A program made the translations under genes and the position numbers. A stretch of 64,000 nt of DNA from positions 1 through 64,000 of the forward strand of contig CALMZX010000076.1 in NCBI GenBank assembly GCA_937870685.1. Direction: 5' to 3'. Source of the stretch: an uncultured Alphaproteobacteria bacterium (GTDB lineage Bacteria; Pseudomonadota; Alphaproteobacteria; Rhizobiales; Aestuariivirgaceae). The notes beneath the pieces were generated by a model. The model saw only the letters and a program-made list of their open reading frames with translations. It had not been told where the DNA came from and did no database searches. Shown here one piece after another: positions 3,929-28,940 of this stretch. Every line of letters starts with the position of its first letter. Within the stretch, counting starts at the first letter, position 1.

Positions 3929-4129
3929 TCAGCTCTTGCCGGCGCGGTGGCGGGTCATGCTGTGGCCGGCGTGGGGCGAGTTCGGCCCTGCCGGTTCAAA
4001 GATGTCTTCGTCTTCGCAGAGGCGTTCGAAGCGCACGCCTGGAAAGATGATGATTTCGGCGCTGCTGCCTTGCGGTGCCGCAGTCTTTCTGTCCTTCGGA
4101 CGCAGTGCAAATTCCAGTACCGATGACAT
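3929..4129 (-). CDS. Small hypothetical protein (66 aa)
   Basis: Intact ORF MSSVLEFALRPKDRKTAAPQGSSAEIIIFPGVRFERL...; on the same strand as downstream-conserved genes; convergent to the DUF1254 gene. Confidence 0.55.
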   Translation of the reverse strand: MSSVLEFALRPKDRKTAAPQGSSAEIIIFPGVRFERLCEDEDIFEPAGPNSPHAGHSMTRHRAGKS

Positions 4130-4214
4130 GACGAAAGCCTCATTCCCCAGGTTGAGTGGTTCACCCCGTTGGCCTGATTAAGTCCAGTCATGGTTAACAA
4201 ATGGCTAAGCGATT

Positions 4215-4556
4215 TCACGCTTCGGCAACGAGCCCGGCGAGACCGGAGCGGTCTTCCACTTCCACAAGCCAGAGATCGGGATCGGCTTTCTTGCGTTTCT
4301 CCATGCGCGCGGCGACATCTTGCCACGGCACGGGTGCGGCGAAATCCTTCACGAAGCGGCGCTCGCCTTCATCATCATGGGATGCGCCCGGCGCCGGAGC
4401 CAGCAGATCGTGCGTGCCATCGAGATGATTGATCACAATGTAGAGCGCGCCCGCCTCCTCCGCCCCCTTCTTCACCACGGCACCGAAGTGTCCGCCGATG
4501 TCGCAGCGGCGCAGGAAGGCCTGGACCCAGAAATTGGTCTTGAGCCGCGGTGTCAC
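4215..4556 (-). CDS. DUF1491 family protein
   Basis: MTPRLKTNFWVQAFLRRCDIGGHFGAVVKKGAEEAGALYIVIN... matches the remembered DUF1491 pattern; overlaps the upstream CDS by 4 bp. Confidence 0.8.
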   Translation of the reverse strand: MTPRLKTNFWVQAFLRRCDIGGHFGAVVKKGAEEAGALYIVINHLDGTHDLLAPAPGASHDDEGERRFVKDFAAPVPWQDVAARMEKRKKADPDLWLVEVEDRSGLAGLVAEA

Positions 4557-5353
4557 CGCTGGGCTGCGGCGGTCGCTGCTTCCGCCACTTTCAGGCCCGC
4601 CAGCAGTTCCTTGCTGATCGTGCCATCCATGGCGAGGCCGAAATCCATCTGGAACTTCAGGATGGCGGCGCGCGTCACCTCGTCGGGTTCGCCGTTCACG
4701 GCGGGAATGTCATAGCCGAGCTTGCGCAGCTTCTGCTGCACGTCGCGCACGCGGGCAAGCCCTTGCGGCCTTGGCGCGGCCGGTTTCGCTAGCGGCTTTG
4801 CGGCCTGTTTCAGTACGCGTGGCTTGGCTTGCGGAAGATCAGGGACTTCTGCCTTTGGCGCGACCGAGCCCGTGAATTCCGATGCGGCCGCCACTTTCCG
4901 CGTGTAGCGGATGTGGTCCAGAAGCTGGCGGGTGATTTCGCCCGTGACCGGCAACTGGTTGTCCTGCTGGTAGCTCTTGATGGCAATCGCCGTCTGCTTT
5001 CCCGCGACACCATCCACAAGCCCGCGATAGTGGCCTGTGGCCATCAGTTCGCGCTGCACGTCCTCGACCTGCGGATCATATTTGATGGTGACGGTTGTGA
5101 GGGGCTTGGCGGGGACAGCGACTTCCACATGGGTGCTGGCACCCTTTGGAATCTGCGTCAGCAGCGTGCGGGCGCCAGTTGCGGCGTGCGGCCCGAGGAA
5201 GGCGTTCCAGACGATCATGCCGCCAAGGCCGAGGGCAAACACGGCCAGCGCCGCCGCACCGGGGCTGACACCACCCCCATGCTCCTCCGGCACTTCACGA
5301 ACCCTGGCTTTCGACGAACGACCCATACGCAACTCACTCAACTGGGATGCCAC
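4553..5353 (-). CDS. Membrane-anchored peptidoglycan-binding (PG_binding_1) protein
   Basis: Single N-terminal TM (AALAVFALGLGGMIVW) and two PG-binding repeats (VQRELMATGHYRGLVDGVAGKQTAIAIKSYQ; VQQKLRKLGYDIPAVNGEPDEVTRAAILKFQ). Confidence 0.8.
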   Translation of the reverse strand: MASQLSELRMGRSSKARVREVPEEHGGGVSPGAAALAVFALGLGGMIVWNAFLGPHAATGARTLLTQIPKGASTHVEVAVPAKPLTTVTIKYDPQVEDVQRELMATGHYRGLVDGVAGKQTAIAIKSYQQDNQLPVTGEITRQLLDHIRYTRKVAAASEFTGSVAPKAEVPDLPQAKPRVLKQAAKPLAKPAAPRPQGLARVRDVQQKLRKLGYDIPAVNGEPDEVTRAAILKFQMDFGLAMDGTISKELLAGLKVAEAATAAAQR

Positions 5354-5554
5354 TCTGCCCTGCTCTGGTTAATGCCGCCTTTCCCGTGAGCCGCCCATCC
5401 CCCACAAACGTGGTGAATGAATGGTGACCAGATTGCGCCGCATTTGAATCAAAGCTTCCGCCGCCGCTTCAACGGCTGGAAATGCGGGCCTGCTATGAGA
5501 AGGCGTGGACGGAACACCGGAACAACAACGCGGTGAACGATAACGGGGTTACTC

Positions 5555-5992
5555 ATGGGGATCTTGAGAAACGCAGTGATACTTGGTGCCGTGGCGCTGG
5601 CCATGCCGAGCCCGCCTGTCTCAGTGCAGGGCAATGGCATTGTGGCGCCAACCGCCAGCAGCTTTGCCTATGTCTCGGCTGCGGCGGAAACCTTCGCCGA
5701 CGTGCGCGCCTTCTGTGAACGCAGGCCTGGCGTGTGCCAGACGGCCGGGCATCTCGCGGTCACCATGGAAGCCAAGGCGAAATACAGCGCCAGGCTCATC
5801 TATGAATGGGCCAATGACGCAGGTGCCGCCGAGCCGCGCGCCACAGCCTTGCCGCCCGATCTGGCCGCCGCTGACCCGATTGCCACGGGCAGTGTTGGTG
5901 GTGAACCCAGCCTTGCACAGTCACAATCAACCCTGAAGCTGGAAGACCTGCTGACCGAGTGGAAGGCTCCGCCGAAACCCAAGAAGGGTTGA
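5555..5992 (+). CDS. DUF5330 domain-containing protein
   Basis: FCERRPGVCQTAGHLAVTMEAKAKYSARLIYEWAN core. Confidence 0.7.
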   Translation: MGILRNAVILGAVALAMPSPPVSVQGNGIVAPTASSFAYVSAAAETFADVRAFCERRPGVCQTAGHLAVTMEAKAKYSARLIYEWANDAGAAEPRATALPPDLAAADPIATGSVGGEPSLAQSQSTLKLEDLLTEWKAPPKPKKG

Positions 5993-6025
5993 ACGGCAGC
6001 CGGAAAGCGCTATGTCAGCGGTCGC

Positions 6026-6454
6026 ATGACTGACGCGCTCCAGACCCTCCGCGATGATTTCGCAGTCCTTGATGACTGGGAAGACCGCTACCGCCACGTC
6101 ATTGATCTCGGCAAGGCCCTTCCGCCGATGGACCCCGCCCTCAAGACACCGGCCACCAAGGTGAGCGGCTGCGCCAGCCAGGTGTGGATTCATTCGCGTG
6201 TCGAGAGCCACGGCGGACAGCGGCAGCTTGTGCTGACCGGTGACAGTGATGCCCTCATTGTCAAAGGCCTCATCGCCATCGCCTTCATGATTTTCGGCAA
6301 CCGCAACGTGGCCGACATTCCCGGCATCGATGCTGCCGCCATCTTTGCTGAACTCGGCCTGAGGGAACACCTGACGCCACAACGTTCCAATGGCCTTGCC
6401 TCCATGGTGGCGCGCATCAAGGCAGATGCTGCCCAGGCGATTGCCGCGGCATGA
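6026..6454 (+). CDS. sufE: SufE family Fe-S cluster assembly / sulfur acceptor protein
   Basis: DDWEDRYRHVIDLGKALPPM...KVSGCASQVWIHS (active-site Cys loop) ...GLIAIAFMIFGNR. Confidence 0.9.
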   Translation: MTDALQTLRDDFAVLDDWEDRYRHVIDLGKALPPMDPALKTPATKVSGCASQVWIHSRVESHGGQRQLVLTGDSDALIVKGLIAIAFMIFGNRNVADIPGIDAAAIFAELGLREHLTPQRSNGLASMVARIKADAAQAIAAA

Positions 6455-7190
6455 TTGACGGACGGTAGTCCGAGACGGCCCAATGCCCGATCTGTGACGG
6501 ACCGGCGTGGCGCAGGCGCGGCTTCAGGCCGTAGTGGCGTGCCAGACGCGTGAGCCCGAGCAGCAAGATCGCGCGGGCCGAACGGCGCGGCAGACTCAGC
6601 CTGCGCTCGGCCTCCTCGAGGCCTGCCGTAAGACAGCAGACCTGCAGCAACAATCCCGAGAGTTCGGGACCGACGGCCTCCAGCGCGTCATGCACCAGCT
6701 GGCGCGCTGCCAGTGCGCCGTCGCTCAGACGGGACACGGCATTGTCGCTCATCTGCCAGTGCCGTGACGAGGATGTGGCGGGCACGTAGTTCGTGGTCAC
6801 GCGGGGCGACAGGTGTGCACGTTCATAGTCGCGGCGCAGGCGTTCGGCGGCCTTGAGGTGTTCGGCCTCGAAGCGGCCATCACGGTCCTGCGAGGCCGTG
6901 GCCATGACATGCTGGAGCGGATTTTCCCGGATGTTCCGCACCGCCTGCAGGGCGGCCGCTGCCGGGCGGAACAGGCCATCGTCACCCGCCACAAGTGCTC
7001 CCGCTTCAACCAGCGCGGCAATGACGGGCGCGGATTTCACCGCGAGAACGCGCTGGCTCCCGGCCTGCGGCGACATCACATGCCAGCGCCCGTTGCGCTG
7101 CAGGAGGGCCGCGCCGTTGGCACGCAGGCGCTTCAGGAAGGTTTTTTCGGGCGATTGCGTTTTGGTTTCGGCGAAACAGGATACAGACAT
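6417..7190 (-). CDS. DUF6456 domain-containing protein
   Basis: VTTNYVPATSSSRHWQMSDNAVSRLSDGALAARQLVHDALEAVGPELSGLLLQVCC...RSARAILLLGLTRLARHYGL. Confidence 0.7.
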   Translation of the reverse strand: MSVSCFAETKTQSPEKTFLKRLRANGAALLQRNGRWHVMSPQAGSQRVLAVKSAPVIAALVEAGALVAGDDGLFRPAAAALQAVRNIRENPLQHVMATASQDRDGRFEAEHLKAAERLRRDYERAHLSPRVTTNYVPATSSSRHWQMSDNAVSRLSDGALAARQLVHDALEAVGPELSGLLLQVCCLTAGLEEAERRLSLPRRSARAILLLGLTRLARHYGLKPRLRHAGPSQIGHWAVSDYRPSIMPRQSPGQHLP

Positions 7191-7252
7191 GACTCACTCC
7201 TCTGGCGGAAGTGGTCGCTAGCATATCCTATAATAGGAATCAATACGCAATT

Positions 7253-7756
7253 TCAGGCGATGGCCGCGACCTCGTCGTCCAGCCGGTCCGTGGCGGACAT
7301 GAAGTAGTCGAAACACAGCACCATGCCGACGTCCGTGGCAGCGGTGCGCAGCGGCAGGCGCAGCCAGTATTGCACCATGTGTTCCTTGTGCAGCCGCGGG
7401 CCTTTCACCACGCCCTGGGTGGGCAGGCCTTCGGCAATGGTGCGCTCGAAGGCGGCAAGCCAGTAGTCACGCTTGTCACCCCAATCGAGATCGTTGAGTG
7501 TCAGACCGGTGATTTCGCGGTCGTAGATTTCGCGCAGCCGCGTTCCGGCCAGCCGCACGCGCGAGCAGCCGATGGTGTCCTTCACCTCGACAAGGCTGAT
7601 GCCCGAGAGCATGCGCGGGATTTCGCCGGGGATGATGTCGGCGCGGCAAGGCATGCGGGAAACCCCGGCCTTTGCCAGCCAATAATCGTAAAGTTGGCGT
7701 TGCTCGGGCACAACAAGCTGCGCCCTGAACGCCCTACCGTCCTGACCCCAATCCAC
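7253..7756 (-). CDS. PAS domain-containing protein (PAS_5-like)
   Basis: YDYWLAKAGVSRMPCRADIIPGEIPRMLSGISLVEV...CSRVRLAGTRLREIYDREITG layout typical of alphaproteobacterial PAS_5 proteins. Confidence 0.7.
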   Translation of the reverse strand: MDWGQDGRAFRAQLVVPEQRQLYDYWLAKAGVSRMPCRADIIPGEIPRMLSGISLVEVKDTIGCSRVRLAGTRLREIYDREITGLTLNDLDWGDKRDYWLAAFERTIAEGLPTQGVVKGPRLHKEHMVQYWLRLPLRTAATDVGMVLCFDYFMSATDRLDDEVAAIA

Positions 7757-7859
7757 TGCCGCCCCTTATTTGCCGAATCGGTCGTCCTACCGATTCCCCA
7801 GTGTATGAATCGGCGACTCGTGATCCGCAAGAGTCGGCAACCGCGATGCGGCAAAAAAG

Positions 7860-8270
7860 TCAGCGGCGCTTCTTGCTCTTGCGGCCAAGCCCCATGGACT
7901 TCGCCAGCTTGGAGCGCGTTTCCGCATAGCGCGGCGCCACCATCGGATAATCGGCGGCGAGGCCCCACTTGGCGCGGTACTGTTCGGGCGTGAGACTGTA
8001 CTTCACGCGCAGATGGCGCTTCAAGGATTTGAAGCGCTTTCCGTCTTCAAGGCAGATCAGATAGTCAGGGAAAACCGATTTCTTGATCGAAGACTTCTGC
8101 GGCTTGAGGTCAGGCGAAGCGGCCACGGCCTGTCCGGAGCCGACTGCCTGCAACGCACCGTGCACTTCAGCAACCAAGCGCGCGACATCGGCGCGCGGCA
8201 CTTCATTGCGCGACACATATGCGGCAACAACCTGCGCGGTGAGCGAGAGAAGAGATGTGTCAGTCATCAT
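7860..8270 (-). CDS. mucR: MucR/Ros family zinc-finger transcriptional regulator
   Basis: YLICLEDGKRFKSLKRHLRVKYSLTPEQYRAKWGLAADYPMVAPRYAETRSKLAKSMGLGRK, a MucR/Ros signature. Confidence 0.92.
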   Translation of the reverse strand: MMTDTSLLSLTAQVVAAYVSRNEVPRADVARLVAEVHGALQAVGSGQAVAASPDLKPQKSSIKKSVFPDYLICLEDGKRFKSLKRHLRVKYSLTPEQYRAKWGLAADYPMVAPRYAETRSKLAKSMGLGRKSKKRR

Positions 8271-8373
8271 GTATTTCCTGGTTCCAGAAAGAAAAAAGAG
8301 AGGATGGTGCCTTACGCGCCAATGCAAGACGAAGCAATACGCAACGAGGTTGACGTTTCAACTTGCGATATAT

Positions 8374-10425
8374 TCAGTGGACGGGGGCGTAGGGGCCGGC
8401 CTTGCGCACGGCCCAGTTCCAATAGGTGAGCAGGATGCGCGCCTTGTTGAGCGAGAGCGTGTCAAACATCGTCTGCAACTCGGTGGTGTCGCGCTCCGGA
8501 GCAAGAAGCGCGATTTCACCCCGCTTCAGTGCCGGCAGGAGATCGCCAACACTGGAGCGCGGGAAGCCGGCTGCCTTCAGCATCACAACAAGCGCTTCGC
8601 CCTCGCGATCCATCAGGATGCGGTGGATGGCTGCGGCATCGACATTCAGCGCCTCACCGAGTTTCGCGGCCGCAGTCTCGGTTCGTCCGCGGCAGGCGAC
8701 CTCAAGATACTCCATCACATCACCGGCGCTCGGCAGGTTGACGTCATCCTTGCCCTCGTCGCCAGCCTGCGCCGACAGCGTGATCTTCAGGATCTTCGTC
8801 AGTGTTTCCGAGTCCGTGAGGAAGCGGTGGAGCAGATAGCGGCGCAACTGCGGCGGCGCCGGCCAGAAAAGTTCAAAGGCATGCGGTGCACCGAGGTCGC
8901 CACGCGTCGAGAGCGGGGCCATCAGCTCGTCGTGCCTCGCGGCCTCCTCGATCAGCGCGTTGAATCCGTCGTGCGAAATTTCCGCGTTGGCATTGCGCAC
9001 CAGCGTGAGAAGCACGGAGGCGTCAGCCGTGGCAATCAGCTTGTCGCTGATGGCACGCGACAGCCTGCGGCGGCGGGCCACCATGCGGCGCTTGCCGGGA
9101 TTCTCTTCCGCCACAACCATGGCCAGGTCCTGGTCGGTGATGTGCATGCAATCTTCCAGCAGCGGGCCGGAGACTTCCACGCGGTCATCGCGGATCAGCT
9201 TGGCAACCAGCAGCTGCGGGGGATTGTCCATGATGGCAAGACGCTGGGACAGCATGGCCAGCGGCTTCACGGCGAGCTTGGGCAGGAGGCGCAGAAGCGT
9301 GTCCGCCGCCAGCGCACGTTCGTGCGGCAGGCCGGAACTCGATCCTGACGCCATCATGTCCAGAAGGGAGCGGGCAAGTTCCGCAGTTTCCACCTGCTCA
9401 TCTTCGCTGTAGTCGGCCACGAGTGCTGCAGCGGGCTCCTCCACCACAGGCTCCGCCGATACTTCGATGCGCGAGAGATCATGCTCGGGCGCAAGCATCT
9501 TTGTCACGTCAACACCCTGCTCCGCCGCCATGATCTCGGCAGCCTCGCGCAGGAATTCGGCGCGCTCTTCCAGGGTCGGGGTCGCCAGCACCTGGCGCCA
9601 GATGTTTTCGATGTCGAGCTGCTGCAGGCGGTTGCTGGCGTCTTCGCGCAGGCGCTCCTGCACCGCGTCCATGCTGGGCGGCGCAACGGTGATCTTCTCG
9701 CCATTCTCCTCAATCACCAGCGGTGGTGGCGGAGGCGGCGGTGGCGGAAGGATTTCAGGAAGCGCCACCGGTGCCGCAACCTTGTGTTCGGCGGAGAGAA
9801 TGCGGTCCAGCGGCGAGAGATGCGCCTGTGGCGCGGCAGCAGCAGGCTGTGCCGGGGCGGGCTCGAAGACAGGTTCAATTGCCGGTACCGCAACAGGCTC
9901 CGGCGGAATATCGGGCATGGCCTCCGGCGGGAATTCCGGTGCCACTTCAAGGACAAGTTCAGGCACGACGACAGGTTCCGCTTCGGCCTCGACGGTCATC
10001 ACCTCTTCGGTGCCTGCAGCGTCCTGATCGGGAATGCCGAAATCTTGCGCTGGTGGCGCATGCTGCGGAACTTCAGGATTGTCCTGCGGCAGGATCTCCG
10101 GTTCCGGCGCAAAGCTCACCGGAGCGGTGACATCATACACTTCCTGCGAAACATCAGGAGCAGATGCCAGTTCTGGCGGAGGTGCAACAATGACGGACGG
10201 TTCAGCGTGCTCATCGGGAGGCGGCACGGGTTGAACTTCAATGGGCGGAACGGCAATGGGCTGAACGGTGACAGGCGCCACGGCAATGTGCGGGACCTGC
10301 GCGGACGGATTCTTCAGCCGCTCGGTGAGCGCCCTGAAGCGGTCAGCGCCAATGCGGGGACGAATAGTCCCGGCAGCTGCCATTGCAGCGCCCTCCCCAC
10401 CTATGCCCACGTGTACAGTCATCAT
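8374..10425 (-). CDS. DUF2336 domain-containing protein with Pro-rich N-terminal linker
   Basis: C-terminal helical repeat (ARHDELMAPLSTRGDLGAPHAFELFWPAPPQLRRYLLHRFLTDSETL) as in DUF2336 proteins; long Pro/Val/Glu-rich region including PPPPPPPPP. Confidence 0.75.
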   Translation of the reverse strand: MMTVHVGIGGEGAAMAAAGTIRPRIGADRFRALTERLKNPSAQVPHIAVAPVTVQPIAVPPIEVQPVPPPDEHAEPSVIVAPPPELASAPDVSQEVYDVTAPVSFAPEPEILPQDNPEVPQHAPPAQDFGIPDQDAAGTEEVMTVEAEAEPVVVPELVLEVAPEFPPEAMPDIPPEPVAVPAIEPVFEPAPAQPAAAAPQAHLSPLDRILSAEHKVAAPVALPEILPPPPPPPPPLVIEENGEKITVAPPSMDAVQERLREDASNRLQQLDIENIWRQVLATPTLEERAEFLREAAEIMAAEQGVDVTKMLAPEHDLSRIEVSAEPVVEEPAAALVADYSEDEQVETAELARSLLDMMASGSSSGLPHERALAADTLLRLLPKLAVKPLAMLSQRLAIMDNPPQLLVAKLIRDDRVEVSGPLLEDCMHITDQDLAMVVAEENPGKRRMVARRRRLSRAISDKLIATADASVLLTLVRNANAEISHDGFNALIEEAARHDELMAPLSTRGDLGAPHAFELFWPAPPQLRRYLLHRFLTDSETLTKILKITLSAQAGDEGKDDVNLPSAGDVMEYLEVACRGRTETAAAKLGEALNVDAAAIHRILMDREGEALVVMLKAAGFPRSSVGDLLPALKRGEIALLAPERDTTELQTMFDTLSLNKARILLTYWNWAVRKAGPYAPVH

Positions 10426-25111: not shown

Positions 25112-25555
25112 ATGACCACTCTTCCCCGCCCCACCATGTTCCTCCTGCCGCAGGCGGGATGGAAGGAGCATGTGCGCATGCCCAAGCTGAAGCTGGGGCC
25201 GATCGTGGCGAAGCTCGATACGGGCGCGCGCTCGGCGGCACTGCATGCCGACGAGATCCATGTGAGTGGCAGGCGGGTTACCTTCGTCATCATCGACGAG
25301 GGCCGCAGGCGCACCTACAAGGCCCCGCTGGTGGGCCAGAAGCGCATCAAAAGTTCCAATGGCATCAGCGAGATGCGGGCCGTCATTCGCGCGACACTGG
25401 AAGTGGGAAAGTCGGTGTTCAAGGCCGAAATCACACTCACCGACCGCACCGACATGGACGTGCCCATGCTCTTGGGCCGCAACACCTTGAAGGGCCGCTT
25501 TCTCGTCAATCCGGCCCGCACCTTCCTCCTCGACCGCAAGACACGACAGCCATGA
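25112..25555 (+). CDS. RimB-like / ATP-dependent zinc protease family (PF05618-type, retropepsin-like) protein
   Basis: [23 protein letters not shown]...[25 protein letters not shown]; stop overlaps rimK start (ATGA). Confidence 0.85.
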
Positions 25556-26457
25556 AAATCGCCCTGCTCACCCGCAATCCGAAACTCTATTCGCACCAGC
25601 GCATCATCGCCGTGGCGCAGGAACGCGGCCACGAGATCGTGCCCGTGGACTACTTGCGCTGCTACATGAACATCTCTTCGCGCAAGCCGGAGCTGCGCTA
25701 CCTCGGCGAGAAGCTGGAGGGCTTTGATGCGGTGATCCCGCGCATCGCGGCGTCACACACCTTCTATGGCCTCGCGGTGCTCCGGCAGTTCGAGATGATG
25801 GGCGTCTATCCGCTGAATGAATCTGTCGCCATCGGGCGCAGCCGCGACAAGCTGCGGGCGCTGCAACTGCTGTCGCGTGATGGCGTTGGGCTTCCGGTCA
25901 CAGCCTTCGCCAACTCGGCGGGCAGCACCGATGACGTGTTGCAGATGGTGGGAGGTGCGCCTGTCGTCATCAAGCTTCTCGAAGGCACGCAAGGCATCGG
26001 CGTGGTGCTGGGCGAAACACAGAAATCGGCGAAGTCGGTGATCGAGGCGTTTCATGGTGCCGACATCCACATCCTGGTGCAGGAGTTCATCAAGGAGGCC
26101 GAGGGCCATGACATCCGCGCCTTCGTGGTCGGTCGCAAGATCGTCGCCACCATGGAGCGGGCCGGGCCGGAGGGCGAGTTCCGCTCCAACCTGCACAGGG
26201 GCGGATCGGCAGTGAAGGCGGAGTTGTCGGCGGCGGAAAAGGCAGCGGCGCTGAAGGCCTGCAAGTCCATGGGCCTCAATGTGGCAGGGGTGGACATGCT
26301 ACGATCGAAGCGCGGGCCTGTTGTGATGGAGGTCAACTCCTCGCCGGGGCTGGAAGGCATCGAAGGGGCAACGGGTAAGGACGTGGCCCGCGCCATCATC
26401 ACGTTCCTTGAAAAACACGCCAAACCGAACAAGACAAAGACGCGCGGCAAGGGCTAG
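25552..26457 (+). CDS. rimK: RimK family ATP-grasp alpha-L-glutamate ligase
   Basis: [18 protein letters not shown]...[17 protein letters not shown]...[20 protein letters not shown]. Confidence 0.95.
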
Positions 26458-26481
26458 TCTCTGCGGCGGGGAAAAGGGGCA

Positions 26482-27486
26482 ATGCGCATGGGCGGATTCG
26501 AGATCGGCGAAAGGATCGTCGCGCAGGGCACGCGCGAGACGGTGAACCTTGGCGTCTCGACGCTGGCCAATGCCAGCCCCATGAACCTGCCGGTGCATGT
26601 GGTGCATGGCGGCCCGGGACCGGTGCTGTTTCTTTCCGGCGCCGTGCATGGCGACGAGATCCAGGGCATTGAGATCGTGCGGCGGGTGCTGGGGCATGAG
26701 GCGCTGAAGTCACTCAGCGGCACGCTGCTCGCCATTCCCATCGTCAATGCCTTCGGCTTCCTCAACCACTCCCGCTACATGCCGGACCGGCGCGATCTCA
26801 ACCGCTCGTTTCCGGGTTCAGACCAAGGCTCACTGACATCGCTGCTGGCCGACCTGTTCTTCCGCGAGGTGGTGCTGCGCTCGCAATACGGCATCGACCT
26901 GCATTCGGCGGCCCTGCACCGCACCAACCTGCCGCAAATCCGCATCGCCCCCAAGGACGACGACCTGATGACTCTGGCGGAGGCCTTTGCTCCTCCTGTC
27001 ATCATGACTTCGAAGCTGCGCGACGGTTCGCTGCGCCAATGCGCCAAGGACGCGGGCGTGAAGGTGGTGCTTTTTGAGGGCGGCGAAGCGCTGCGCTTCG
27101 ACGAGGCATCGATTGAAACGGGCGTCAAAGGCACGCTGCGGGTGATGAAATCGATCGGCATGATCGGCACTGCGCCAGCCGTTCCGGGCCATGCCGTCAC
27201 GGTGCATTCGACGTCGAGCACCTGGACGCGCGCTCCCGAGGGCGGAATCTTGCACTCCGTGCGGCAGGTCGGCGACAAGGTGGGCAGGCGCGAGCCCATC
27301 GGCATCATCACCGATCCTCTGGGTCAGGTGCGCGTGCCGGTCTTCGCGGAAGACGATGGCGTGATCATCGGCAAGACCAACCTGCCCATCGTCAACCGCG
27401 GAGACGCCCTGTTCCATGTGGCGCGCATCAAGGCCAAGGCCTCCAGCAAGGTGGACGCCATGCCCGACGAGGACGAAATCATCTGA
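26482..27486 (+). CDS. Succinylglutamate desuccinylase/aspartoacylase family (M14-like) protein
   Basis: FLSGAVHGDEIQGIEIVRRVL, NRSFPGSDQGSLTSLLADLFF, IDLHSAALHRTNLPQIR. Confidence 0.9.
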   Translation: MRMGGFEIGERIVAQGTRETVNLGVSTLANASPMNLPVHVVHGGPGPVLFLSGAVHGDEIQGIEIVRRVLGHEALKSLSGTLLAIPIVNAFGFLNHSRYMPDRRDLNRSFPGSDQGSLTSLLADLFFREVVLRSQYGIDLHSAALHRTNLPQIRIAPKDDDLMTLAEAFAPPVIMTSKLRDGSLRQCAKDAGVKVVLFEGGEALRFDEASIETGVKGTLRVMKSIGMIGTAPAVPGHAVTVHSTSSTWTRAPEGGILHSVRQVGDKVGRREPIGIITDPLGQVRVPVFAEDDGVIIGKTNLPIVNRGDALFHVARIKAKASSKVDAMPDEDEII

Positions 27487-27514: not shown

Positions 27515-27528
27515 TTGACGCGGATCAA
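27515..27528 (+). promoter_or_regulatory. FNR/FixK-type box TTGAC-GCGG-ATCAA
   Basis: Exact 14-bp motif; centre about 65 bp upstream of the DUF2892 gene start. Confidence 0.7.
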
Positions 27529-27551
27529 GGTTGCGCACGGCGCCTTCTGAC

Positions 27552-27567
27552 AATATATTCGCATATT
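27552..27567. promoter_or_regulatory. AT-rich imperfect palindrome AATAT-ATTCGC-ATATT overlapping the expected -10/TSS region
   Basis: caatatattcgcatattctaATGG; also a direct repeat ATATTC-GC-ATATTC. Confidence 0.4.
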
Positions 27568-27586
27568 CTAATGGAAAGGATTTGCC

Positions 27587-28474
27587 GTGGCCAACATTCG
27601 TTCTCCCGACAGGTTCGTGCGCATGGTGCTGGGCATTGGGCTCCTGCAACTCGCCTACTTCTGGCTGGGCAGTCCGTGGAACTGGGTTGCTGCCGCCGTG
27701 GGCGTCATCCTTCTCGTGACGGCGGCCTTGCGCTTCTGCCCGCTGTACCGGGTGATTGGCGTGAAGGCCTGTCCTGCAGGCACGAGCCGTCCCTGGCAGC
27801 GCGCCGTGGTGGCGCTGCTTCTCTTGGGACTCGCTGCGGGCGGCAGCTACGCCAGCATGTTCTTCTCGCGCAAATTCTTCCTCGAAGACTTCAACGCGAT
27901 GAACCATTTCTACAAGCAGACACTGTTCCTGACCGGCAAGGCGCAGCGCGACGAAGCGGTCGCGAACCTTGACCAGTTGAAGCCGGCGTTTGCGGCCTTT
28001 GTGGCCAAGTACTCAGGATACCGGCCTCATGACCTCAAGGGGGATGGCAAGCTGGTGTCCGACTTTGAGACCGTGAATGGCATTCTTGCGGCCGTTGAAC
28101 CGCTGGTCCGCAGCGGTGACCTGCATCAGGCCCATCTTGACCTCGAAAAGGTCCGGCCGGTGTTCCAGGACATGTTCAAGCGCAACGGCTTCTCGATGCT
28201 CGCCGTGGCGCTGGTCGATTTCCACGATGCCATGGAAACGATCCTTGCGGCCGCCAATGCCAAGGACGCGGCCAAGCTGGCGTCGCTCTATCCCGGTGTC
28301 AGCGACAAGCTGAAGGTGGTGGAGGCAGAGGCCAATGATCCGGAAATCCTGGCCATCCGGCAGGCTCTTGAAGATGTGCATGCGGCGGCGCAATCGGGTG
28401 CAAGCGAAACGCTTCCCGCCAAGGGCGAAACGCTGAAGAGCAGCTTCGTCAAAGTCTATCTGAAGCGGGGATGA
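27587..28474 (+). CDS. DUF2892 (YgaP-type membrane domain) protein with long helical C-terminal domain
   Basis: IRSPDRFVRMVLGIGLLQLAYFW...ALRFCPLYRVIGVKAC typical of DUF2892; roughly 200-aa extension of unknown type. Confidence 0.8.
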   Translation: MANIRSPDRFVRMVLGIGLLQLAYFWLGSPWNWVAAAVGVILLVTAALRFCPLYRVIGVKACPAGTSRPWQRAVVALLLLGLAAGGSYASMFFSRKFFLEDFNAMNHFYKQTLFLTGKAQRDEAVANLDQLKPAFAAFVAKYSGYRPHDLKGDGKLVSDFETVNGILAAVEPLVRSGDLHQAHLDLEKVRPVFQDMFKRNGFSMLAVALVDFHDAMETILAAANAKDAAKLASLYPGVSDKLKVVEAEANDPEILAIRQALEDVHAAAQSGASETLPAKGETLKSSFVKVYLKRG

Positions 28475-28532
28475 GCAACACACTCTCCCACGCTCCACAA
28501 ACAGAAGATCATCTCAACAACCGGACAAACCC

Positions 28533-28940
28533 ATGCGCCTTGCCCCGCTCCTGACAGCAGCCCTCCTCTTCATCTCACCCGCCTTCTCGGCGGAACGCAT
28601 GTCGCCGGTGGATGTGGCGGCGCAGGTGGCGGCGGGTCAGGCCGTTCTTGTTGATGTCCGCACGCCGGAGGAATGGGCGGAGACGGGTGTGGCCAAAGAC
28701 GCAACACCGATCGACATGACCTCGCCCAGCTTCATGGACGAGGTCCACAAACTTGCGGGCGACAATCCCGGCAAGCGGCTGGCCTTTATCTGCCGCAGCG
28801 GCAACCGTTCAGGCCAGGTGACGCAGGCACTCGAAGCGCAGACGGACCTCGCGGACCTGATTGATGTGGCGGGTGGCATGCTGGGCAAGGGCGCCGACAT
28901 CGGCTGGATTGCCGCCGGATTGCCGGTCAGGGCGCCGTAA
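28533..28940 (+). CDS. Rhodanese-like domain protein, exported
   Basis: Signal peptide; VLVDVRTPEEWAETG...LAFICRSGNRSGQVTQAL (active-site Cys loop CRSGNR). Confidence 0.92.
   Translation: MRLAPLLTAALLFISPAFSAERMSPVDVAAQVAAGQAVLVDVRTPEEWAETGVAKDATPIDMTSPSFMDEVHKLAGDNPGKRLAFICRSGNRSGQVTQALEAQTDLADLIDVAGGMLGKGADIGWIAAGLPVRAP

Follow-up and report, generated by a model that had tools for sequence, protein, structure and literature searches.

The window analysed here, a stretch of 64,000 nucleotides from an uncultured alphaproteobacterium, contains what appears to be a two-gene operon, in which a gene for a DUF2892 membrane fusion protein is followed by one for a putatively exported rhodanese, with a Crp/Fnr-type box and a palindrome resembling an ArsR operator placed upstream (Table 1). 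Directly upstream of the operon lies an AstE/AspA-type hydrolase gene with its 3' end at 27486, preceded by genes for a RimK ATP-grasp ligase and a Zn-protease (PF05618), the series (25112-27486) looking like an ordinary peptide-modification cluster. The active-site loop of the rhodanese is intact in the translation (C87-RSGNR), and its N-terminus, read by eye, bears an apparent resemblance to a Sec-type signal peptide. As the earlier note on this DNA had stated, rhodanese and DUF2892 are separate polypeptides here, unlike in YgaP; the two genes have a Pfam match each and the DUF2892 protein contains no cytosolic rhodanese domain. In the same-genus genome G034 the rhodanese gene does not adjoin the fusion orthologue, and in a further one, G032, the contig ends at this point.

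Table 1. Features of the operon and its promoter region, in coordinates of the window.
Feature	Position	Strand	Description
FNR/FixK/NnrR-type activator box TTGACGCGGATCAA	27515..27528	+	Centre 27521.5, 65 bp 5' of the GTG
Candidate -10 region	27551..27559	+	CAATAT 27551-27556 (box exactly at -41.5) or TATATT 27554-27559; predicted from sequence
Operator-like palindrome AATATATTCGCATATTCTAAT	27552..27572	.	Resembles an element at same-genus SqrR/BigR-type ArsR promoters
Probable ribosome-binding site GGAAAGGA	27573..27580	+	Read from sequence
Fusion gene	27587..28474	+	295 aa, GTG start; DUF2892/YgaP-like TM domain, third TM helix, ~200-aa helical domain
DUF2892 part, residues 1-66	27587..27784	+	Pfam PF11127 (YgaP-like_TM), residues 2-64, E 1.9e-18, above cut-off
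Helical domain, residues 94-295	27866..28471	+	Tandem four-helix bundles, predicted periplasmic; from model, conservation and homology
Rhodanese gene	28533..28940	+	Single domain, 135 aa; Pfam PF00581, E 4.8e-10; 58 bp 3' of the fusion gene

The activator box is the sole match to TTGAY-N4-RTCAA in the window, against 0.09 expected, and its FNR/FixK form, letters and coordinates are as the earlier note gave them. From its centre follows, as also proposed there, a class II start near 27563 inside the palindrome, and transcription is predicted to begin near 27563-27566. The G034 promoter likewise carries CAATAT, 21 nt downstream of its box. Across the 3.29-Mb genome the pattern occurs at 27 sites, compared with 5 in a reversed control, and most of these lie 60-90 bp 5' of genes, with the ccoN site at 214 bp and the ccmE site at 54 bp. 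The spacing of the window box is like that at other targets and is compatible with class II activation. Further targets, which we take from their sequences to be such, are nirK (an NsrR-like gene diverges from it), norC, NnrS, cytochromes c, cytochrome c peroxidase, OmpW, a universal stress protein and a Crp/Fnr gene from which ppk2 diverges.

The earlier note had held that absence of the box upstream of orthologues would count against it; the two orthologues from the same genus, G034 (74% identity) and G032 (66%), each have a perfect box, and among 25 proteobacterial orthologues, which include two near-duplicate groups so that the counts are not fully independent, it is exact in 5 (0.04 expected) and found with at most one mismatch in 11 (0.62 expected). 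Upstream of CPR orthologues, used as a negative control, no excess of boxes was found. The box belongs to a genuine regulon. Its sequence alone would fit FnrL/FixK (oxygen), NnrR (NO) or a DUF2892-linked Crp/Fnr protein alike, and the genome encodes an FnrL with an Fe-S cysteine motif (CxxC...C), adjoining hemN and ccoN, together with two further clear Crp/Fnr proteins, one of them near norC. In Bradyrhizobium, the DUF2892 gene bsr5776, which shares a predicted FixK2-box operon with trxC, was raised 26-fold in anoxia and was lower in an nnrR mutant (PMC6710368).

The palindrome AATAT-ATTCGC-ATATT described by the earlier note is real and lies at 27552-27567, but it does not overlap the box itself. 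It is the only AATAT-N6-ATATT in the 3.29-Mb genome, and a fuller operator-like element extends to 27572. A candidate repressor is encoded elsewhere, on contig C103, as an ArsR of 100 aa whose nearest solved structures, among the matches listed, include HlyU, SqrR, YgaV and BigR, and in which both sensor cysteines (RILC and LFC, aligned to HlyU) are present. Its gene is flanked by a DUF2892 gene on one side and an RND membrane-fusion/pump pair on the other, in a region (L164, about 4100-8950) with several operator-like AT palindromes. ArsRs sensing sulfane sulfur are known to regulate RND pumps as well (PMC12423496), YgaV binds close to the ygaVP start (PMC9774250) and SqrR controls a rhodanese gene in Rhodobacter capsulatus (PMC9995734).

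In relatives, where the ArsR genes are ~70% identical to that of C103, similar elements stand 5' of the ArsR ATG: TAAATATTCGTATATTAGCA (L184), AATATATGCGAATATTAGAA (L185) and CATATATTCGTATATTAGAA (L186, from G034). In C103 itself, TATATATGCGTATATTAGAA lies upstream of the DUF2892 gene and is the best-matching own site. Operators were searched for by a matrix scan over 330 kb and a pattern search over the whole genome. With a matrix built without the window, from training sites chosen by eye, the window palindrome scores 24.6 bits, nothing else in the scanned 330 kb exceeds 12.1 bits once the ArsR locus is set aside, and none of 5000 dinucleotide shuffles reached as high as the window site, including when the AT-rich 34-mer itself was shuffled. 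A matrix from the three relatives alone gives 24.8 bits. If one mismatch is tolerated, the core ATATKCGWATATT, of a length set after the resemblance had been noticed, has three occurrences in 3.29 Mb: one in the window, one at the DUF2892 promoter of C103 and one at a further place, so that two of the three are DUF2892 promoters. The window also has ATTC-N8-TAAT (27557-27572), sharing 7 of 8 letters with the published SqrR consensus ATTC-N8-GAAT; the exact consensus, tried as a finder, returned 24 genome sites, the window not among them. By its sequence, the palindrome looks like an ArsR operator and is read as not just an AT-rich -10 region. In matrix scoring it is absent from the fusion promoters of G034 (2.5 bits) and G032 (-4.0 bits), making the ArsR-type input specific to the window copy. 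The BigR/SqrR-type repression that the earlier note had called speculation thus gains support, because the genome encodes an ArsR of this type with both cysteines, the ArsR-promoter motif matches the palindrome and two of the three core sites are DUF2892 promoters, even with the element not kept at the two nearest orthologues. Altogether, the observation made there is confirmed, and its interpretation is supported, holding up better than it claimed.

To our knowledge, no function of DUF2892 is settled. DUF2892 genes number exactly three in the genome: that on contig C82 stands after a Crp/Fnr gene that has a box upstream, that on C103 adjoins the ArsR gene, and that of the window combines the two promoter elements. 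At the C82 locus (L047, 6470-7500) the FNR-type box is situated between ppk2 and the Crp/Fnr gene, with the stand-alone DUF2892 gene after them. Among 27 loci with a stand-alone DUF2892 gene from other genomes of the order, 15 have a neighbouring homologue of the C82 Crp/Fnr gene and 3 more a similar ArsR gene. Elsewhere, an Azospira gene, comparable as a DUF2892 protein only, had its transcript raised ~10-fold during H2S oxidation, while its deletion merely delayed H2S oxidation slightly (PMC5358917), and a low-oxygen-responsive cluster of Acaryochloris contains DUF2892 with a rhodanese (PMC5295598).

The fusion protein is distinguished by the ~200 residues beyond its DUF2892 part. Domain prediction bears out the earlier reading of an extra helical domain: AlphaFold2, given 53 sequences, yields a confident model (mean pLDDT 91.7 for the full protein and 94.7 for the domain alone) in which this region is entirely helical. 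As read from the model, the order would be two DUF2892 helices, a third TM helix and two tandem four-helix bundles. The domain is probably periplasmic, to judge from the hydropathy and from the positive charge carried by the N-terminus and the TM2-TM3 loop. It is without a model in Pfam or NCBIfam, and fold searches with the whole model and the domain retrieved no solved fold at E <= 1e-3. Its invariant residues are H183, E187, R190, R199, N200, D211, H213, D214, M216, E217, E246 and R258, of which H183, E187, H213, D214 and E217 are identical in all 53 sequences; C51, at the predicted cytoplasmic end of TM2, is kept in 52 of the 53. A heme protein of the cytochrome b562/c' type was considered and rejected, with Cytochrom_B562 matching two relatives only (E 0.2-0.26, far below cut-off), Foldseek giving at best E 0.015 for the domain with a low TM score, and no CxxCH seen.

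A profile built from fusions only recovers secreted proteins in other alphaproteobacteria (E from 1e-18 to 1e-9 for the best, weaker for the rest), and in profile-profile comparison these align across the whole helical domain with a probability of 98.6 (E 5.8e-16). Among ten such loci, five contain soxY, soxZ, soxA, soxB, ccdA and soxW, one further has ccdA and soxW together with genes for an ArsR and a flavocytochrome c sulfide dehydrogenase, and soxW is present in another two. Genes for secreted double-bundle proteins, undescribed and lacking a Pfam model, adjoin ccdA and soxW in sox clusters of alphaproteobacteria at L051 (4079-4888), L050 (506-1228), L126 (4859-5608) and L128 (4756-5487). 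The sox-cluster relatives do not retain H183, E187, H213 and D214, and this set of residues is therefore fusion-specific.

In a scan of species genomes with a three-sequence alignment, 58 fusion loci were found, including the G034 and G032 records themselves. Hosts comprise Betaproteobacteria (Rhodoferax, Limnohabitans, Curvibacter, Hydrogenophaga), many CPR lineages, Chloroflexota and others, mostly represented by MAGs in which bin assignment may be wrong. In the 53-sequence family alignment, most members are 37-62% identical to the window protein along its full length. The window, G034 and G032 proteins form a fully supported clade within the proteobacterial group, placed among Betaproteobacteria, and the fusion occurs in just 3 of 37 congeneric genomes, which together suggest horizontal gain. 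A phage or plasmid origin was examined and rejected; viral contigs held no relatives, and two plasmids gave short stand-alone DUF2892 matches only. Within 5 kb of the fusion, a rhodanese gene is found in 10 of 59 loci (one of them, L084, TrhO-like), most loci being without one, and ArsR genes occur in 9 loci, glutaredoxin-like genes in 8, CsoR genes in 4 and thioredoxin with thioredoxin reductase in a few. Six fusion promoters, several from close relatives of each other, carry an exact TACCC-N2-6-GGGTA palindrome (0.00 expected), whose form is CsoR-like and which may be a CsoR-type operator; the loci are L069, L105, L107, L110, L111 and L114, with a CsoR-family gene directly 3' in L107 and L111. 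That the ArsRs of CPR loci are SqrR-type sensors was considered but found no support, these being closer to CadC/Lmo1102, and they were accordingly left out of the evidence for sulfide.

A tentative reading, which we hold to fall somewhat short of an even chance, is that the helical domain represents an undescribed type of periplasmic domain that binds sulfane sulfur, or a sulfur-linked metal, and exists in two architectures. One would be the secreted Sox-cluster protein and the other the DUF2892-anchored form, which would have spread horizontally (freshwater Betaproteobacteria, Hyphomicrobiales, Chloroflexota, CPR) and been plugged into different host regulators, i.e. a Crp/Fnr box, a SqrR-type ArsR or a CsoR-type operator.

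Compared with known systems, the operon is a variation on the YgaVP/SqrR theme and not a new kind of system, its most interesting parts being the fusion family and the sox-linked domain. With E. coli ygaVP (the ArsR repressor YgaV; YgaP with rhodanese and DUF2892) it shares a DUF2892 TM domain and a rhodanese in one transcription unit and, by prediction, a SqrR/BigR-type ArsR operator over the start region. It differs in that the rhodanese is separate and predicted to be exported, whereas that of YgaP is cytosolic and in the same polypeptide, in the added ~200-aa helical domain and FNR box, and in the location of the ArsR gene elsewhere in the genome. The Bradyrhizobium operon blr5774-trxC-bsr5776, of the FixK2/NnrR regulon and from the same order, likewise joins a DUF2892 gene to a thiol/sulfur partner under a predicted FixK2-type box; however, the partner is a thioredoxin and the DUF2892 gene is short, the bsr prefix denoting a small ORF. 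We know of no ArsR operator in that operon. The R. capsulatus SqrR regulon (sqr, rhodanese rcc01557) is a further alphaproteobacterial case of a sulfide-responsive, two-cysteine ArsR over a rhodanese gene, but neither a helical fusion protein nor an FNR box is described for it in the accessible part of the account. Lastly, the secreted protein encoded between ccdA/soxV and soxW is homologous to the fusion domain but is free, without DUF2892 and without the fusion-specific His/Glu/His/Asp residues.

Taking sequence elements, conservation, homology and genomic context together, we infer a scheme of binding, signal logic, topology and chemistry in which the operon, with a fair degree of probability, handles sulfane sulfur (persulfide, polysulfide or thiosulfate) at the cytoplasmic membrane under oxygen scarcity and in the presence of sulfide or polysulfide. 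There are strong grounds to expect that a Crp/Fnr-family activator (FnrL/FixK, NnrR or the DUF2892-linked protein) would bind its box for class II activation, and good grounds to expect that the C103 SqrR/BigR/HlyU-type ArsR would bind the palindrome over the -10 and start region and block transcription. Repression would end once sulfide or polysulfide joins the two ArsR cysteines. With an activator required and the ArsR block in place until then, the operon would act as an AND gate. Topology, homology and context further suggest that the exported rhodanese mobilises periplasmic sulfane sulfur, while the fusion protein would anchor the double four-helix-bundle domain in the periplasm and act as a carrier, sensor or reductase partner. 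The position of C51 would be consistent with sulfur relay, export or sensing across the membrane.

Part of this scheme would fall away if the operon were a plain microaerobic or denitrification (FixK/NnrR) target, its palindrome merely an AT-rich -10 region and no sulfide repressor involved. The box is indeed conserved while the palindrome is not, the latter covers a -10 region that is AT-rich in any case, and the Bradyrhizobium DUF2892 gene is FixK2/NnrR-dependent (PMC6710368). We nevertheless judge this unlikely, since the ArsR-promoter matrix from relatives finds the window site with 0 of 5000 shuffles as good, the palindrome core is limited to three places in 3.29 Mb and the best own-genome match sits at the ArsR-linked DUF2892 gene. 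The operon could alternatively answer NO or nitrosative stress, the box being used by NnrR and not FnrL, and the rhodanese and DUF2892 protein repairing or relaying NO-damaged sulfur during denitrification. This rather doubtful option draws on the same box at nirK, norC and nnrS, on the third Crp/Fnr protein near norC and on the nnrR dependence in Bradyrhizobium (PMC6710368), but CPR and many betaproteobacterial fusion loci show thiol/sulfur genes without denitrification context, and the ArsR-type operator points toward sulfide.

The chemistry itself is questioned by the idea of a metal or general thiol-stress module, in which the helical domain would bind metal or heme through H183/E187/H213/D214/E217 and the CPR ArsR and CsoR proteins would be metal sensors. 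The invariant His/Glu/Asp set is in keeping with it, as are CPR ArsRs nearest to CadC/Lmo1102, linked CsoR copies placed next to copper-sensor models and several CPR fusions adjoining RND or ABC efflux genes. Against it stand the restriction of the residue set to fusions, to the exclusion of sox-cluster relatives, the rhodanese, Grx and Trx neighbours, and an own ArsR that is SqrR-like, of a kind that likewise controls RND pumps when sensing sulfane sulfur (PMC12423496); we consider it improbable. Under the preferred sulfane-sulfur reading, low-oxygen and sulfide signals would meet at one promoter via two types of regulator that are both well understood, and the AND-gate idea can for that reason be tested directly.

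For DUF2892, the operon adds a regulatory and genomic context pointing toward sulfane sulfur. The comparison furthermore exposes a conserved, unnamed protein family, common to freshwater proteobacteria and CPR, that small-genome CPR keep beside glutaredoxin, thioredoxin and ArsR or CsoR genes. Four loci of CPR or uncultured, small-genome lineages (L089, L090, L106, L115) form compact operons of ArsR, glutaredoxin, in some cases thioredoxin and its reductase, and fusion genes, their ArsRs having an extra cysteine (KKICVSDI) and being more CadC-like than SqrR-like. In Comamonadaceae (L070, L071, L073), the fusion gene adjoins a CcoG-like cbb3-oxidase assembly gene together with genes for YeeE-like and SulP-like transporters.
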